From positions 1 through 25,462 of the IMG/VR virus record IMGVR_UViG_3300025070_000205: DNA of 25,462 nucleotides. One strand, given 5' to 3'. Every line of letters begins with the position of its first letter. The stretch's first letter is position 1. Both the position numbers and the translations under genes were made by a program. Under the pieces are notes generated by a model. It was not told the DNA's origin. It saw nothing but the letters and a program-made list of their open reading frames with translations, and did no database searches. Positions 5,604 through 21,333 of this stretch are shown piece after piece. The stretch comes from a virus.

Positions 5604-6065
5604 ATGTGTAAAAGCAACGAAAAAAGGATCCGTTTTGCACCCGTCCCGCTTGCCATTTTGGATGAGTATTGTGAACTCCACGGCATGACACCAAGTGCCG
5701 CAATATCGCCGCTAATTACGGCATATTTGCGGCATCCCTCGCGCGCGTCGCGTCATTCTTTACAGAATGAATATAATATACATAGCCAAGAAAGTACGGA
5801 TTCGCCGCAAATTGCGGCAAAGCAAAAACCGAAACCTCGCAAGAAAAACAAGACCCCACTGCCCGAAGATTTCGATCCACCAAAAGCGATTTGCGAAGAG
5901 GCAGGAGTGGACCACGAAAAAGCAGTTAGGTTTTTCAAAGCCCAAGCGGAAGCAAAAGATTATCGTTACGTAAATTGGAACAAGGCATTCGCATTGGCGG
6001 TGAACGGTTACCTCGTACAAAACTACCCGCAGATTTTGCAGACCAAACAGGAGAACGAATTTTAG
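5604..6065 (+). CDS. probable replication initiation / helicase-loader protein
   Basis: 153 aa. The first 45 residues look like a short helical DNA-binding or RHH-like module (KRIRFAPVPLAILDEYCELHGMTPSAAISPLITAYL). A basic, Pro/Lys-rich linker follows (residues about 74-90). The C-terminal part (AVRFFKAQAEAKDYRYVNWNKAFALAVNGYL) resembles the C-terminal DnaT/phage O-like domain that delivers DnaB to DNA. It lies one base before the dnaB-like helicase gene, the expected place for a loader. The family assignment is from pattern and context only. Confidence 0.55.
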   Translation: MCKSNEKRIRFAPVPLAILDEYCELHGMTPSAAISPLITAYLRHPSRASRHSLQNEYNIHSQESTDSPQIAAKQKPKPRKKNKTPLPEDFDPPKAICEEAGVDHEKAVRFFKAQAEAKDYRYVNWNKAFALAVNGYLVQNYPQILQTKQENEF

Positions 6066-12055: not shown

Positions 12056-12119
12056 ATTTTTTTGTCTTTTAGTTCAATTTAGTTGACATAGCAATATAAA
12101 AGAATACGAGTGACTACAG
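12056..12119. promoter_or_regulatory. divergent promoter region before the packaging-side genes
   Basis: 64 bases separate divergent starts. A perfect TTGACA (12083-12088) faces the plus-strand gene; the -10 match TACGAG (12105-12110, 16-base spacing) is poor. With that -10, transcription would start within a few bases of the ATG at 12120. A/T-rich DNA toward the minus gene could serve the opposite promoter. Confidence 0.4.
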
Positions 12120-12560
12120 ATGGATACTGAACGGGCAAAGAAGATATTGGCGGATTCGGGTATTGAGCATCCTGTATTTGCGCAGAGGCTTGGCATTAAG
12201 GCGAATAGCTTTCGTATGAACCTGAGTATGGGACGGTTGAGTAAGAAAGCTGTGGCTTTACTCTTAGAGTTGGAAGCTGATCTGAAGGAGGACAAGGAGG
12301 ACGGACCTTCTGAGGCGGCAATGGTGAAGGAGGGAATGATCCGTCAGACTTTGGAAGTACCCTTGGAGAAAATGGGCAAGGTGTATATGTTACCCAAGAA
12401 TCCGTATTTGCGTCTTGTTGAGTTCAAGGATGGAAGCCATGGCAAGTTCAAGGCTCAACCTGGTAAGTTCGTATTGGGTGCGATTGTAAAGTTAGCCCAT
12501 GAGAAGGGTGACATGTATCGCTTGGTGGGTAGGTACGACAGGAAGGATCGGTTGGTATGA
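12120..12560 (+). CDS. hypothetical protein with HTH-like N-terminus
   Basis: 146 aa. Residues 5-50 (AKKILADSGIEHPVFAQRLGIKANSFRMNLSMGRLSKKAVALLLELE) resemble the Cro/XRE-like HTH core. The C-terminal part (KMGKVYMLPKNPYLRLVEFKDGSHGKFKAQPGKFVLGAIVKLAHEKGDMYRLVGRYD) looks beta-rich. First gene of the plus-strand late half, so it could be a regulator. Function not assigned. Confidence 0.65.
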   Translation: MDTERAKKILADSGIEHPVFAQRLGIKANSFRMNLSMGRLSKKAVALLLELEADLKEDKEDGPSEAAMVKEGMIRQTLEVPLEKMGKVYMLPKNPYLRLVEFKDGSHGKFKAQPGKFVLGAIVKLAHEKGDMYRLVGRYDRKDRLV

Positions 12561-12856
12561 GTGAAGCCCTACAGATGTCCAGGGTGACCGGATTTCATCG
12601 AGTGTCCTGTGGTGAGTATTTGCGAGGTCAGACTGACCCGTTTGAGAAGAGTAGTCGCATACAGAAGGAACTGACCGATTGCTTGCTTGCTATCTTGGCT
12701 TTATCTGCTCCGCGAGGGGTTCCCATGTCCTGCCGGGAGATTGGAGAGTTTTGCGGCATCTCCAAGCAACGAGTCCATCAGATCGAGAAGGAAGCCATGA
12801 AGAAACTTAGAAGTAACTCAACGGTCACCCGCAAGGAGTTTAGGCAATGGAAATAG
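12557..12856 (+). CDS. second small protein with sigma-70 region 4-like HTH
   Basis: 99 aa. Residues 57-86 (MSCREIGEFCGISKQRVHQIEKEAMKKLRS) match sigma region 4.2 well. As in the protein at 5146-5496, no region 2 is present. The two share the same HTH layout but little else. It overlaps the preceding gene by four bases (ATGA). It lies upstream of the late operons, so it is a candidate regulator of the paired late promoters. Confidence 0.7.
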   Translation: MSEALQMSRVTGFHRVSCGEYLRGQTDPFEKSSRIQKELTDCLLAILALSAPRGVPMSCREIGEFCGISKQRVHQIEKEAMKKLRSNSTVTRKEFRQWK

Positions 12857-16012: not shown

Positions 16013-16048
16013 TTGACCTGTAAGGCGTATTGCCTTACAATCTGTAAC
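16013..16048 (+). promoter_or_regulatory. late promoter with embedded inverted-repeat operator (portal operon)
   Basis: TTGACC (16013-16018), 17 bases, TACAAT (16036-16041). The spacer and the -10 hold a perfect inverted repeat TGTAAGG (16019-16025) / CCTTACA (16033-16039), and TGTAAC follows at 16043-16048. The same arrangement recurs at 19194 before the scaffold gene. The expected transcript start lies only a few bases before the portal ATG. Confidence 0.8.
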
Positions 16049-16051
16049 GCA

Positions 16052-18124
16052 ATGCTCAGTGCCGCAGATCCCGAACTTCTCTATGTATCCAAGAAGCCCG
16101 ATATTGCTTACTTGGCTCAGACCTATAAGGAAACACAGTCCGACTTGGGTGAGTGGTTAGACCGCAAGCAACGCGACTACGACGTAAGGAATTGCCAATG
16201 GGCGGGAAAGAGCGATGACTTTAAGAAGCACGCATCGCTAAGTTCCACCGGAGAAGTATTTCCTTGGGAGGGTGCCAGTGATAGCGAAATCCGCATGGCG
16301 GACGAGATAATCGGATGCAAGGTTTCGATGGTTATGAATGCGGTAAGGCGAGCGCATATCGTTGCTACCCCAACCGAATCGAACGACGTTGAGCGGGCAT
16401 CCGTCATAAGCAACTTCCTTCGTTGGCTCATCAATACCAAGATGACTGAGTTCTACTCTGAGATGGAACTTGCTATGAATCATCTCTTCGAGAAGGGGAT
16501 GACCGTTACTTACGCCTACTACGATCAGCAGGAACTGAAACAACAACAGACCATAAAGCTTGAGGAAATAGCCCAAGTTTTGCCAGCCATTGCGGAAGTC
16601 ATCCAGGACGGATCGATGGACGATGAGTTGAGTGAAACCCTCAAGGAACAATTCGGAGTATCCAAGACCAAGGGTAGGGCAATGCTCCGAGAACTACGCA
16701 AAGACGGTGAGACTACCGTTCCGGTTACACGCGAAGTGATTAGCCGCCCCAAGATCAAAGCACTTGCCCCTGACGAAGATGTGTTTTGGCCAAACTACAC
16801 GATTGATCCGCAAGAGGCTCCCTATGTCTTCCATGTTGTGAACATGACACCCGAACAGATTCGGGCAAAGATCAACACTGAGGGATGGGATAAGAACTTT
16901 GTCGAGCAGGTAGTTGACCTTGCGAACAATGCCGAGGCCGAGGACAACCTTTACAATATTCGCGAGCAAGACGAATTCGTTCACTCCGATGATCAGTATG
17001 TAAAAATCGTCTATTGCTACCAACGCCTTTTGGATGAGGACAATATTCCGGGTATCTACTGCACGATCTTTCATGCCAGTGTGACTGAGACATATGCAAA
17101 GCATCAATTAATGGACTACGCTCATGGCAAGTACCCGTTCACGGTTACAACGTGGGAGCGTACATCCAAGCGACTTTATTCGTCCCGTTCAATACCGACC
17201 ATTGCAGAACCCGATCAACAGGCATTAAAGGTAGAAGTAGACTCAGCAATAGACGCTCAGTCTTTGACTACGCTTCCACCAATTGAGCATCCTCTTGGAA
17301 GATCCCCAAGTCGGTTTGGACCGGGTGTAAGGCTCCCTTATCGTACTCCTGGTGAGGTTCGTTTTGCGGATACGCCACGTGGTTCAACGGTAAACGTCGA
17401 ACTCCGCAGGTATATCCAAGAACAGGTAAACCGATACTTCGGAAGGAACGGTCCTGGCGTTGATCCGGTTGAAGCGCAGATGAAGCAGCAGCATATCATC
17501 GACAAGGTATTCAGCCACCTCAGACAAGTCCTTGATCAAATCTTCAGCCTCTATCAACAGTACGGACCCGATGAGGAATTCTTTCGGGTTACGGGAATGC
17601 AGGACTTGCAGAAGTTCAGTAAAGGTAACCCCGGTGAACGCTTTGACTTTTCACTTCAATTCGATGCGGCTTCACAAGATCCCGCCCAAATGCTTGATCG
17701 TGTAAAAGCGATTGCCGAGCTAGGTGGAATGTTGGACAAGAACGGCACGCTTGATACCGAGAGGTTGCTTCAAATCGCAGTTGGACAGATCATGCCTGGT
17801 GCTGCGGAGAGCATAATGATTCCCAAAGAGACTGCATCACAGAAAGCAGTTGAGGAAGAGCGTCAAACTATTGCAGAGATCTATGCGGGAGTTCCGCCTA
17901 ACGTCCGTCCGAATGACGCTCACGAAATGAAACTCCAAGTATTTCAACAGTGGTTACAACAACCCGACGTCACTCAAAAGGTTCAACAAGATCCTGCCTT
18001 GCAAGAGCGTATTCAGAATTACCTGCAACAAAGACAGATGCAAGTAACTCAGAAACAGAATGCTCAGATTGGCAGACTCGGAGCCGCACCAACACAGTTT
18101 GGGGAAACCCCAAGCGCAGCATAG
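16052..18124 (+). CDS. portal (head-tail connector) protein
   Basis: 690 aa. Placed directly after terL and before scaffold and capsid, the standard site for the portal gene. It has the length of large podovirus-like portals and typical stretches: helical N-terminus, GEVFPWEGASDSEIRMADEII (about residues 67-87), the stem/wing region around FHVVNMTPEQIRA, and a Gln-rich C-terminal tail (QKVQQDPALQERIQNYLQQRQMQVTQKQ). A longer frame opens at a TTG at 16013, but that TTG is the -35 box of the promoter, so the ATG at 16052 is the start. It has no Shine-Dalgarno sequence. Confidence 0.85.
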   Translation: MLSAADPELLYVSKKPDIAYLAQTYKETQSDLGEWLDRKQRDYDVRNCQWAGKSDDFKKHASLSSTGEVFPWEGASDSEIRMADEIIGCKVSMVMNAVRRAHIVATPTESNDVERASVISNFLRWLINTKMTEFYSEMELAMNHLFEKGMTVTYAYYDQQELKQQQTIKLEEIAQVLPAIAEVIQDGSMDDELSETLKEQFGVSKTKGRAMLRELRKDGETTVPVTREVISRPKIKALAPDEDVFWPNYTIDPQEAPYVFHVVNMTPEQIRAKINTEGWDKNFVEQVVDLANNAEAEDNLYNIREQDEFVHSDDQYVKIVYCYQRLLDEDNIPGIYCTIFHASVTETYAKHQLMDYAHGKYPFTVTTWERTSKRLYSSRSIPTIAEPDQQALKVEVDSAIDAQSLTTLPPIEHPLGRSPSRFGPGVRLPYRTPGEVRFADTPRGSTVNVELRRYIQEQVNRYFGRNGPGVDPVEAQMKQQHIIDKVFSHLRQVLDQIFSLYQQYGPDEEFFRVTGMQDLQKFSKGNPGERFDFSLQFDAASQDPAQMLDRVKAIAELGGMLDKNGTLDTERLLQIAVGQIMPGAAESIMIPKETASQKAVEEERQTIAEIYAGVPPNVRPNDAHEMKLQVFQQWLQQPDVTQKVQQDPALQERIQNYLQQRQMQVTQKQNAQIGRLGAAPTQFGETPSAA

Positions 18125-18132
18125 GAAACATC

Positions 18133-18249
18133 ATGCCCTACGGTAAAGGTACATACGGATCGAAGGTTGGAAGACCTTCCAAGAAAGCAAAAGCAATGGC
18201 ACGGAAGAAGATGCCAGTGAAAAAGAAAAAGATGCTGAAGAGACGGTGA
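18133..18249 (+). CDS. small basic Gly/Lys-rich protein
   Basis: 38 aa: MPYGKGTYGSKVGRPSKK, then mostly Lys/Arg. Proteins beginning with this kind of 'GKGTYG...GRP' stretch occur next to portal genes in environmental phages. Probably a DNA-binding or packaged virion peptide; function unproven. The stop overlaps the next GTG. Confidence 0.55.
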   Translation: MPYGKGTYGSKVGRPSKKAKAMARKKMPVKKKKMLKRR

Positions 18250-18524
18250 GTGTTGAGTACCGTGGCGAAAGGTTCAGTGGGTATAACAAACCAAAGCGAA
18301 CCCCAAAGCATCCCAAGAAATCCCATGTCGTTCTGATCAAGGACAACGGCAAGGACCGTATGATTCGATTTGGCCAACAGGGTGCATCCACTGCGGGTAA
18401 ACCCAAAGCGGGTGAAGGGCAGACGATGAAGAAGAAACGAGCATCCTTCAAAGCTCGGCATTCCAAGAATATCGCTAAAGGTAAAACCTCGGCTGCCTAC
18501 TGGGCCAACAAGGTAAAGTGGTAA
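18246..18524 (+). CDS. basic phage protein of the RFGQQG...AAYWANKVKW type
   Basis: 92 aa with a GTG start overlapping the previous stop (GTGA). The stretches KHPKKSHVVLIKDNGKDRMIRFGQQG and FKARHSKNIAKGKTSAAYWANKVKW are characteristic of a small protein found in many aquatic phages, of unknown role. High Lys/Arg suggests nucleic-acid contact. Confidence 0.75.
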   Translation: MSVEYRGERFSGYNKPKRTPKHPKKSHVVLIKDNGKDRMIRFGQQGASTAGKPKAGEGQTMKKKRASFKARHSKNIAKGKTSAAYWANKVKW

Positions 18525-18525
18525 C

Positions 18526-18873
18526 ATGCCCAAGGACGCTTGCTATAAGAAGGTCAAGAGACGGGTAAAGGTATTCCCTTCCGCCCGTGCTTCCCAACAG
18601 ATTGCGAAGTGTCGCAAGTCCAAAGGCCAAGTAAAGAAGTCGGCCAAGGGTGCATCCTTAAAGCGTTGGAAGTCCGAGAAGTGGAAGGACACAAAGTCCG
18701 GTAAACCCTGCGGTCAGGGTGGAAAAAATGAATATTGCAGACCCACTAAACGAGTTTCATCCAAGACCCCGAAGACAAAATCCGAAATGAGTAAAAGCCA
18801 ACTGGCAAAGAAAAAGCGGGAGAAGTCGAAGGTGGGGATGGGTAGAAGAGTCAAACCCGTAAGGAGAAAATAA
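18526..18873 (+). CDS. DUF5872-like basic protein
   Basis: 115 aa. MPKDACYKKVKRRVKVFPSARASQQIAKCRK is the typical N-terminus of a phage family, followed by LKRWKSEKWKDTKSGKPCGQGGKNEYCRPTKRVS, a Cys-containing basic domain. It may bind DNA in the capsid; the family role is not known. It follows the previous gene by one base. Confidence 0.7.
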   Translation: MPKDACYKKVKRRVKVFPSARASQQIAKCRKSKGQVKKSAKGASLKRWKSEKWKDTKSGKPCGQGGKNEYCRPTKRVSSKTPKTKSEMSKSQLAKKKREKSKVGMGRRVKPVRRK

Positions 18874-18874
18874 C

Positions 18875-19114
18875 ATGCCCCGTAAGAAAAAAACCTACCA
18901 CGAAATTGACCCCGAAGAAGCGATCCAAGCATTGACCTTCTTAAAGGGTGAACCAAATTTTCTAAAGTACATCGAGATGCGTGAATCCATGCGTGAGGAT
19001 GTAATCCGTCAACTCCAGGTAAAAGAGGTAGTCGAGTGTACAAATCGCCACTACATGTTGTGCGGTAAACTCGAAGCAATCGACGAGGAACTTGATACCT
19101 TTTACCGACTTTAA
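18875..19114 (+). CDS. hypothetical protein, last gene of the portal operon
   Basis: 79 aa, not recognised. Basic start (MPRKKKTYHEI) then a helical, acidic body (EEAIQALTFLKGEPNFLKYIEMRESMREDVIRQLQ). A strong terminator follows 35 bases after its stop. Confidence 0.65.
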   Translation: MPRKKKTYHEIDPEEAIQALTFLKGEPNFLKYIEMRESMREDVIRQLQVKEVVECTNRHYMLCGKLEAIDEELDTFYRL

Positions 19115-19148
19115 CCTTTCAGTGCGAACATATGGGGATGTGTATGCG

Positions 19149-19185
19149 CCCCCTGCGAGTCCCGCCAACTTGCAGGGGGTTTTTT
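19149..19185 (+). terminator. rho-independent terminator of the portal operon
   Basis: CCCCCTGC (19149-19156) and GCAGGGGG (19172-19179) pair perfectly, with a further AGT/ACT pairing inside, followed by six T (19180-19185). Nine bases later the next promoter begins, so this marks a clean unit boundary. Confidence 0.92.
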
Positions 19186-19193
19186 GTTTTGAA

Positions 19194-19229
19194 TTGTCCT
19201 GTAAGGTAATGTGCCTTACAATTTGTAAC
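19194..19229 (+). promoter_or_regulatory. late promoter with embedded inverted-repeat operator (scaffold-capsid operon)
   Basis: TTGTCC (19194-19199), 17 bases, TACAAT (19217-19222). The inverted repeat TGTAAGG (19200-19206) / CCTTACA (19214-19220) and a trailing TGTAAC (19224-19229) match the promoter at 16013 in sequence and spacing; only the 7-base loop and two other positions differ. Confidence 0.85.
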
Positions 19230-19251: not shown

Positions 19252-20340
19252 ATGACAGTCGAATCAATCGAAGCCGAAGTCGCTACCTCTGAACCTGCTG
19301 AGAGTAGTGTAACGCCCGATCCGGGGAATCTAACAATGGCCGAGTATGCGAGCAATTTGCTCAAAGCTCAGTCCGAGGAGGAGCAACCCGAATCACCCGA
19401 AGAGGAAACAGAACCTTCTGATCTAGCTGAAGAGTCTGAAGAACCGGAGGAGACACAGTCTACTGAGGAACCGGAAGAATCGGATCAAACCGAAGCCGCC
19501 GAACCGAATACTGTTCTTTCTAAGTTTAATATAGACCTGGACTCATTGTCCGAAGAAGAAACCAAGGAACTCGCAAAGTCGCTTTCCCTGAGTGCAGTCA
19601 AACGCTTTGGCGATTTGACCGCACAAAAGAAAGCACTGGCACTGGAGAATGCCGAGCTACAAGCGCAAGCCCAAGCAAAGCCCGAACCTGTCAACGAGAG
19701 TCCTTCGTTCATGAAGGATAATGCACTGCATAACGTTAACGACGTCCAAGCACTCACCAAAGAAGTCGAGAACCTAACCACGCTCATCGAATGGGCCGAA
19801 GAAGGGTTGGAGAACGAGGTTGAGTACGACGATGCCGGAAACGAGTACGTAGCCAAGGATGGGGACAAAACCTATACCAAAGCCGACCTTCGTAGGATTA
19901 GGGCAAACGCCCGTAAGGTTTTACGAAAGGATGCACCCGCGAGACAGAAGTGGATCGAGGAGCGTACGCAAAGTGACCAACACGCAATCCAAACATTCGA
20001 CTTCCTTAGTGATGGAGAATCTGAGGATTACAAGTTGTTCATGCAGGTGAAGAGCAACCCACTCTATCAACCACTAGTCGAGCATTTGCCCAACGGCAAC
20101 TTTGCGGTCGGACTAATGATTGAGGGAATGAAAGCACTCCAAGCACGCCAGGTCAATACGAGCAAACCGAAACCAAAGCCCAAGGCTCCCGTAGCTTCAG
20201 TCGAAGCAGGAAGCGCCAAGCCAAGGACGGAGAACTCGCAACGAAAGAAAGCATTGGAATCGGCCAAGGCAAAATTTGATAAGTCCGGGGACATGGGAGA
20301 CTACCAACACTATCTTAAACTCAAGCGGGCAACCGCATAA
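19252..20340 (+). CDS. scaffolding protein
   Basis: 362 aa. Highly acidic, low-complexity N-terminal third (Glu/Pro/Ser-rich, about residues 38-85), a central Ala/Gln/Glu-rich helical region and a basic C-terminus (KPKPKPKAPV about 305-315, then KRATA end). This charge layout, and the position directly before the major capsid gene, fit a phage scaffold that binds the coat through a basic C-terminal region. The gene follows its own promoter by 22 bases and has no Shine-Dalgarno sequence. Confidence 0.75.
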   Translation: MTVESIEAEVATSEPAESSVTPDPGNLTMAEYASNLLKAQSEEEQPESPEEETEPSDLAEESEEPEETQSTEEPEESDQTEAAEPNTVLSKFNIDLDSLSEEETKELAKSLSLSAVKRFGDLTAQKKALALENAELQAQAQAKPEPVNESPSFMKDNALHNVNDVQALTKEVENLTTLIEWAEEGLENEVEYDDAGNEYVAKDGDKTYTKADLRRIRANARKVLRKDAPARQKWIEERTQSDQHAIQTFDFLSDGESEDYKLFMQVKSNPLYQPLVEHLPNGNFAVGLMIEGMKALQARQVNTSKPKPKPKAPVASVEAGSAKPRTENSQRKKALESAKAKFDKSGDMGDYQHYLKLKRATA

Positions 20341-20367: not shown

Positions 20368-21333
20368 ATGGCATCAAGTACATCATATAACACTGCTGGC
20401 AATAAAGAGCAGATTTTAGACATTATCACCGTGTTAGAACCGGAGGCTAGCCCCCTGGTCAGCATGATGAAAAAGGGTAACGCAACTAGCACATTCGTCG
20501 AATGGCAAGCAGACAAACTCAGCACGCCTGACTTTTCGGGAGTGAATGAAGGCGAGGACGTAAGTTCTTTTAAGAATCAAGCCGAGGATCGCGCTAGACT
20601 TGGAAATTATGTCCAAAAGTTTCGCGACACCTTTCAGGTTTCCGACATTCAGCAACTCGTTGACACCGCCGGAGTCGCATCCGAATTCGCCAATGCCGAG
20701 TCCAAAGCTGTTCGCAACGTTAAGCGTTCAATCGAAAGTGCATTTTGCTCCGCTCAAGACCGTCAGGCCGAAGCCGGAAGTGGCACGCCTTACAAGACTC
20801 GCGGATTGCTCAAGTGGCTTGGATCGGGTGGTCAACCTTCCGACATACCTGCCGCTTACCAAAGCGTTGCCAACGACACCACGGGAACCCAGACCGAAGC
20901 TACCTTCAACAGCGTTCTTCAAGAACTCTACGAAGCCAACGGAATGCCTGGTGGTCAACTTACCTTAATTGCAGGTCCAAGCCTCAAGCAAGAGATCTCG
21001 AACTTCTCTCGTCAGCTTGCCGCAGCCAATGGCACTTACGTTGTCAACCAGGATGCCGATTCTCGCAAGATCACGCTTACCGTGAACCTCTACGAAGGTG
21101 ACTTTGGTAACGTTGCAATCGTGCCTTCGCTTTTTGTGAATCGCACAAGCGGATCGGACACCATCGACGCTGATGCCGGACTTCTCGTTGATCCCGAATA
21201 CGTCGGAATGCACTCGCTCAAAGCCGAGTCTGCCACCGAGTTGGAAGATCAAGGCGGAGGTCGCAGAGGTTTCGTAGACGTAATTTGCGGATTGGCATGT
21301 TACTCGCCTAAAGCCCATGGCTTTTTTAATTGA
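20368..21333 (+). CDS. major capsid protein, SU10/DUF5309-like (HK97 fold)
   Basis: 321 aa. It starts MASSTSYNTAGNKEQILDIITVLEPEASPLVSMMKKGNATSTFVEWQADKL, the characteristic N-terminal stretch of SU10-like capsid proteins, followed by the long helix region (AESKAVRNVKRSIESAFC) and a beta-rich C-terminal half. A strong Shine-Dalgarno sequence (AGGAGG) precedes the ATG, unlike most genes in this window; high expression is expected. It lies 27 bases after the scaffold gene. Confidence 0.85.
   Translation: MASSTSYNTAGNKEQILDIITVLEPEASPLVSMMKKGNATSTFVEWQADKLSTPDFSGVNEGEDVSSFKNQAEDRARLGNYVQKFRDTFQVSDIQQLVDTAGVASEFANAESKAVRNVKRSIESAFCSAQDRQAEAGSGTPYKTRGLLKWLGSGGQPSDIPAAYQSVANDTTGTQTEATFNSVLQELYEANGMPGGQLTLIAGPSLKQEISNFSRQLAAANGTYVVNQDADSRKITLTVNLYEGDFGNVAIVPSLFVNRTSGSDTIDADAGLLVDPEYVGMHSLKAESATELEDQGGGRRGFVDVICGLACYSPKAHGFFN

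Follow-up and report, generated by a model that had tools for sequence, protein, structure and literature searches.

Two Matching Blocks Upstream of the Portal and Scaffold Genes

Why should two structural genes of one phage be preceded by almost the same 36 bases, and does one protein act on both? The virus record analysed here, 25,462 bases long (hereafter the window), carries tailed phage genes (integrase, DnaB-like helicase, large terminase and a major capsid protein that falls in PHROG 1328). The first-pass annotation had described two late promoters in it, each composed of TTGWCC, 17 bases, TACAAT, an inverted repeat TGTAAGG-N7-CCTTACA and AT-Y-TGTAAC. Direct reading confirmed this at both sites: the portal block (16013-16048, plus strand) is TTGACC-TGTAAGG-CGTATTG-CCTTACA-AT-C-TGTAAC and the scaffold block (19194-19229, plus strand) is TTGTCC-TGTAAGG-TAATGTG-CCTTACA-AT-T-TGTAAC, with exactly 17 bases between TTGWCC and TACAAT in both. 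The near-identity outside the loop also stood, as the two 36-mers match at 29/36 positions and the next best match to the portal block anywhere in the window reaches 21/36. Perfect 7-7-7 dyads of any kind are common (three in the window against 1.7 expected), whereas two with the same arm occurred in 0/200 Markov shuffles; the exact TGTAAGG-N7-CCTTACA dyad is present in the record at these two sites only. A consensus promoter scan alone was unconvincing (11 found, 15.4 expected). At these sites the -35 and -10 hexamers match the sigma70 consensus at 10/12 and 9/12 positions, and the 17-bp spacing lies within 16-18 bp.

At the portal site the -35 element TTGACC (16013..16018, plus strand as all features below), of which TTGAC is kept in nearly all relatives, is followed by the left arm of the putative operator, TGTAAGG (16019..16025), a variable 7-base loop (16026..16032) and the right arm CCTTACA (16033..16039). 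The right arm overlaps the -10 element TACAAT (16036..16041; TATAAT in L210), and a protein bound to the dyad would therefore cover the -10, as had been proposed. A third element, TGTAAC (16043..16048; TGCTAC in most relatives), lies at about the expected start point. The portal gene (16052..18124) begins with ATG 10 nt past the -10. It lacks a Shine-Dalgarno sequence and, if this promoter drives it, its message would be near-leaderless; in relatives, by contrast, the capsid gene carries AGGAGG. The portal ring is needed in few copies, and a near-leaderless, poorly initiated message would suit such a low-copy protein. A portal start at the TTG at 16013 was ruled out, since the distance from block to ATG shifts by 1 nt between relatives, and the block is therefore considered non-coding.

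The scaffold site is preceded directly by an intrinsic terminator (19148..19188), which has a hairpin and T run in most relatives. It comprises the -35 element TTGTCC (19194..19199), the dyad (19200..19220), the -10 element TACAAT (19217..19222) and TGTAAC (19224..19229). The downstream gene (19252..20340, ATG at 19252) was named scaffold-like from its position and composition and gave no family hit; the major capsid gene (20368-21333) is next. Taking the explanation as a whole, we consider it quite likely that both blocks are sigma70-type late promoters with a shared operator, whose start points would be expected 6-8 nt past the -10.

A Core Promoter Fixed in Position Throughout the Group

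A search with the portal protein retrieved 80 loci with 75-100% identity, and the complete motif occurred in 31 records of the public viral contigs searched. Every one of these sites lies at a portal or scaffold start, so the repeat does not fall at random positions in related phages. A promoter-like block stands just 5' of the portal ATG in every portal relative with upstream sequence (81 distinct haplotypes), and its sequence differs by clade. Type A, that of the window, is TTGACC-TGTAAGG-N7-CCTTACA-AT-N-TGTAAC; type B is mostly TTGACC-CGTAAGG-N7-CCTTACA-MT-N-TGCTAC; type C is TTGA-CTACAT-N10-ATGTAG-TTTTATGCTAC; and type D is TTGCCC...GGCTACAAGTAGC-TACATT-ATGCTAC. The scaffold sites of clade C contain no strict dyad. 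A few relatives are without the dyads of types A to D (L056, L059-L061/L172 and L210); in L210, which derives from an Opitutia metagenome-assembled genome (MAG), the portal promoter is TTGACT-N17-TATAAT-TTGCTACATCT-ATG.

The portal -35 begins 37-43 nt before the ATG in 43 of 44 distinct loci, the remaining one having been missed by the pattern, whereas the gap between terminase and portal genes ranges from 38 to 1469 nt. Because this gap varies and the distance from promoter to ATG is fixed, inserts of about 1.2-1.4 kb must fall upstream of the portal promoter, and none was found between the promoter and its gene. Such inserts between terL and the portal promoter were observed in L016, L025, L058, L060, L069, L076, L206 and L264. 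Upstream of the capsid gene, 108/109 loci have the scaffold-site core TTG-N20-TAnnnn-(N0-2)-TG(CT/TA)A(C/T) where it was expected; the only locus without it is that of the distant phage C75C1. In 93/108 loci this core is preceded by a T run with an exact hairpin arm of 6 or more in front of it. The predicted core promoter is a first layer, group-wide and fixed in position.

Could the dyad instead work in read-through transcripts, as an RNA hairpin that serves as attenuator, RNase site or translational operator? It would form a 7-bp stem with a 7-nt loop directly 5' of the portal ATG. However, the dyad lies upstream of the expected start and its scaffold copy stands behind a terminator, the T to C change in the left arm of clade B portal sites is uncompensated in the right arm, and there is no Rfam match, which together make this reading very improbable.

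A Dyad Layer Gained and Lost in Concert

The second layer, the putative operator dyad TGTAAGG, is restricted to one clade. Mean pairwise divergence within this dyad clade is 4.1% for the left arm and 1.8% for the right arm, compared to 18% for the -35, 45% for the loop and 60% for four-fold degenerate portal codon sites, which upholds the earlier claim that the dyad is conserved for a reason. Polymerase needs no such sequence in a promoter spacer; the left arm sits in that spacer, and the conserved dyad thus extends outside the core promoter elements, as an operator would. It might be argued that the copies are alike without having a function, because the compared genomes are kin and gene conversion can homogenise copies. 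This is scarcely credible, since the two sites of one genome agree in their arms but not in their loops and -35 elements, and since the arms are far more conserved than neutral sites.

Dyad-bearing records that span both sites contain exactly two full dyads each, one of the two in G003 having a single mismatch. Among 44 distinct pairs of portal and scaffold sites, each taken from a single record, the dyad is present at both sites in 16, at neither in 28 and at one only in none. These 16 and 28 pairs are non-independent; counted as events, the joint changes number about three instead of 44. The third element in these pairs is TGTAAC at both sites in seven, TGCTAC at both in 35 and unlike in two (L059 and L060). 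Mapped onto the portal protein tree, the dyad must have changed three times, as well supported branches dictate; most naturally this means a single gain, at a branch with 99% support, and one loss each in the lineages of L056 and L059. In both loss lineages the dyad is missing from the portal and scaffold sites alike. Joint gain and loss at both sites would be expected if the two shared a trans-acting factor. The sites are confined to the two promoters considered co-regulated and evolve together, again as expected of an operator, and a single protein probably controls both promoters. The joint control of the two operons put forward by the first-pass annotation is therefore supported by the both-or-neither distribution in 44/44 pairs, with its one gain and two losses.

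Candidate Binding Proteins

The regulators named beforehand, i.e., two small proteins with sigma region 4 and a ribbon-helix-helix (RHH) protein, fit poorly with the gene content of the dyad-bearing genomes. The gene at 12557, for one of the sigma-region-4 proteins, belongs to a cassette and is missing from the dyad-bearing G002, L013, L025 and L149; in several genomes DNA methylase genes or another sigma-like gene replace it. This locus directly after p12120 (12557-12856 in the window) is a swap cassette, in which sigma-region-4-like genes, genes for cytosine methylases or for other methylases, or no gene at all, take each other's place among the relatives. The 5107 protein is confined to clade A. 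A sigma-region-4 regulator should occur in every dyad-bearing genome; in G022 (37 kb, both dyads, possibly an incomplete record) no such protein was detected above the family cut-off. The Arc-like RHH protein (1531-1734) is absent from G003, which bears both dyads, and its gene has a different conserved element of its own upstream, AATACA/TGTATT. In the divergent RHH/ssb intergenic region (1735-1797 of the window, and in relatives) a conserved CAACAATAAAATACA element common to clades A and C is likely the operator of the RHH protein.

These observations bear on the possibility that the dyad binds an activator, or a phage protein that appropriates sigma, turning the late promoters on. The imperfect -35 and -10 elements (10/12 and 9/12) and the occurrence of small sigma-region-4 proteins in several of these phages would be in line with this. 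However, a dyad over the spacer and -10 is in the usual position for a repressor, G022 bears the dyad with no sigma-region-4 protein above the cut-off, and many relatives keep the core promoter without a dyad, so that in these the polymerase needs none. We therefore regard activation as unlikely. A profile for phage single-subunit RNA polymerase (PF00940) found no match in 12 records, in a search in which the positive controls were silent too.

For the repressor that we favour, the best candidate is p12120 (12120..12560), a predicted helix-turn-helix (HTH) and OB-fold protein and, among the DNA-binding candidates followed, the one present in every relative covering its locus; the first-pass annotation had listed it for gel shifts only. 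Its model (mean pLDDT 78) has N-terminal helices arranged as a helix-turn-helix and a C-terminal OB fold that resembles IF-1; the sequence support for the HTH is weak. The recognition-helix segment differs between clades A/B and C/D, which tracks phylogeny and is weak evidence, and the unrooted p12120 tree has a topology compatible with the portal tree. L172, from a dyad-loss lineage, has a long p12120 branch and an altered recognition helix, which is one event. That p12120 is the dyad-binding protein is a tentative proposal, for which we see a real but minority chance.

The region before p12120 (12083..12119) is itself promoter-like (TTGACATAGCAA...TACGAG...), near-leaderless and equipped with its own dyad. 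In the window, L118, L120, L122 and L132 the -35 of this block is overlaid by a TTGAC-N2-GTCAA-like dyad, CTACA units recur at a distance of 10 bp, and the block ends within a few nt of the ATG. The same kind of dyad was found at the portal promoter of L210 and, one base shorter, at those of L059-L061. With a different dyad at its own promoter, p12120 either reads more than one site or is not the reader. In clades C and D its promoter shares 10-15 bases (CTACATAAGG, CTACAATAGACTACA) with the late promoters, which suggests one circuit there. It is conceivable, and improbable in our estimate, that the operator reader is a new kind of late-gene regulator, an HTH fused to an IF-1-like OB fold (p12120) that would regulate its own near-leaderless message too, with the OB fold possibly acting on the leaderless portal and regulator transcripts. 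If true, transcription and translation control would be joined in one phage protein.

The second candidate is p5604 (5604..6065), with an RHH-like N terminus and a replication-initiator-like C terminus. Its A/B type differs from those of C and D, and the model contains no confident N-terminal strand.

Relatives and Tentative Host

The relatives of the window phage have genomes of 36-39 kb and form a marine group that probably infects Verrucomicrobiota, a tentative host assignment. Relatives of the terminase were found in two Verrucomicrobiota/Opitutia MAG contigs. A tRNA-Lys-like fragment (GCCGGCGTAGCTCAGTTGGTAGAGCAGAAGACTCTTAATC, about 82-122 in the window) precedes the integrase gene and is a likely attachment site; in a host search against 57 genomes the tRNA attachment site gave one near match, by which the host is not settled. 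The marine Verrucomicrobia phage group G11 has genomes of about 39 kb with 45% GC, an integrase and a tRNA attachment site, and Verrucomicrobia as host on the basis of an att match; promoters are unmentioned in the text of that paper (PMC3861242). The window's group may be this G11 group, to which it is likened by description, the genome sizes (about 39 kb and 36-39 kb) being alike. The nearest isolate record is phage C75C1 (OQ984151), which has a similar gene order and portal and capsid proteins with 38% and 43% identity. As a distant test it lent no support, the core promoter not being found before its capsid and scaffold genes.

Host factors control some phage promoters, and a host regulator might likewise read the dyad, the more so as the host itself is tentative. 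However, the exact dyad TGTAAGG-N7-CCTTACA was present in 0/188 genomes from the class to which the Opitutia MAG belongs, a count that applies to the exact motif and to that class, and the dyad was gained and lost inside one phage group. We therefore consider a host reader quite improbable.

A further likeness was observed in L255 (IMGVR_UViG_3300045996_003142) and L311, in which eight intergenic copies of a TTGYAAGG-N7-CCTTRCRCTATGTTCTGTG-like repeat (L311, 5335-10877) lie over the -35 and spacer, with arms nearly as in the window dyad and a loop of equal length. This contig has no p12120 match and one weak protein match to the window only. Convergence might explain the likeness, or chance, given the millions of contigs.

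A Proposed Two-Promoter Switch for Portal and Scaffold/Capsid Genes

We propose that one of the two late promoters drives the portal gene and the other the scaffold and capsid genes, with the same operator lying across the spacer and -10 of each. A protein of the phage itself, probably dimeric, would bind TGTAAGG-N7-CCTTACA and silence both promoters at once, either until late in infection or, given the integrase, during a prophage state; upon release, portal and scaffold/capsid would fire together. Repression is the simplest reading because a dyad-bound dimer would cover both spacer and -10, and the bound protein is most likely a repressor rather than an activator. The terminator before the scaffold promoter would insulate the second operon and, combined with the near-leaderless portal message, would allow low portal and high scaffold/capsid expression from separate messages under one switch.

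In phage lambda, the dyad operators OR and OL lie over the sigma70 promoters PR and PL, and a bound dimer excludes polymerase. The dyad described here likewise overlaps a phage promoter, although with one site each at two late structural promoters and with a binder that is only a candidate. In cluster A mycobacteriophages the repressor sites occur genome-wide and their sequence differs by clade along with the repressor; these stoperators are many, asymmetric, 13 bp long and block elongation (PMC6550527), in contrast to the two symmetric sites placed exactly on promoters here. It is thus already known that phage promoters can carry operators and that operator sequences can differ by clade (lambda; mycobacteriophage stoperators, PMC6550527). 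New here are the pairing of two late promoters under an operator layer that can be removed, and the concerted gain and loss of that layer. A limited literature search gave no description of this promoter pair, and the control of late genes in Verrucomicrobiota phages likewise seems to be undescribed, nothing on it having come up.

For these phages, the analysis thus yields a regulon of two sites, an operator that can be tested and a ranked list of regulators. The natural gain and loss events separate a core promoter that is kept from an operator layer that is replaceable, and the terminator, the second promoter and the near-leaderless portal message suggest that the dosage of portal is controlled separately from that of scaffold and capsid.
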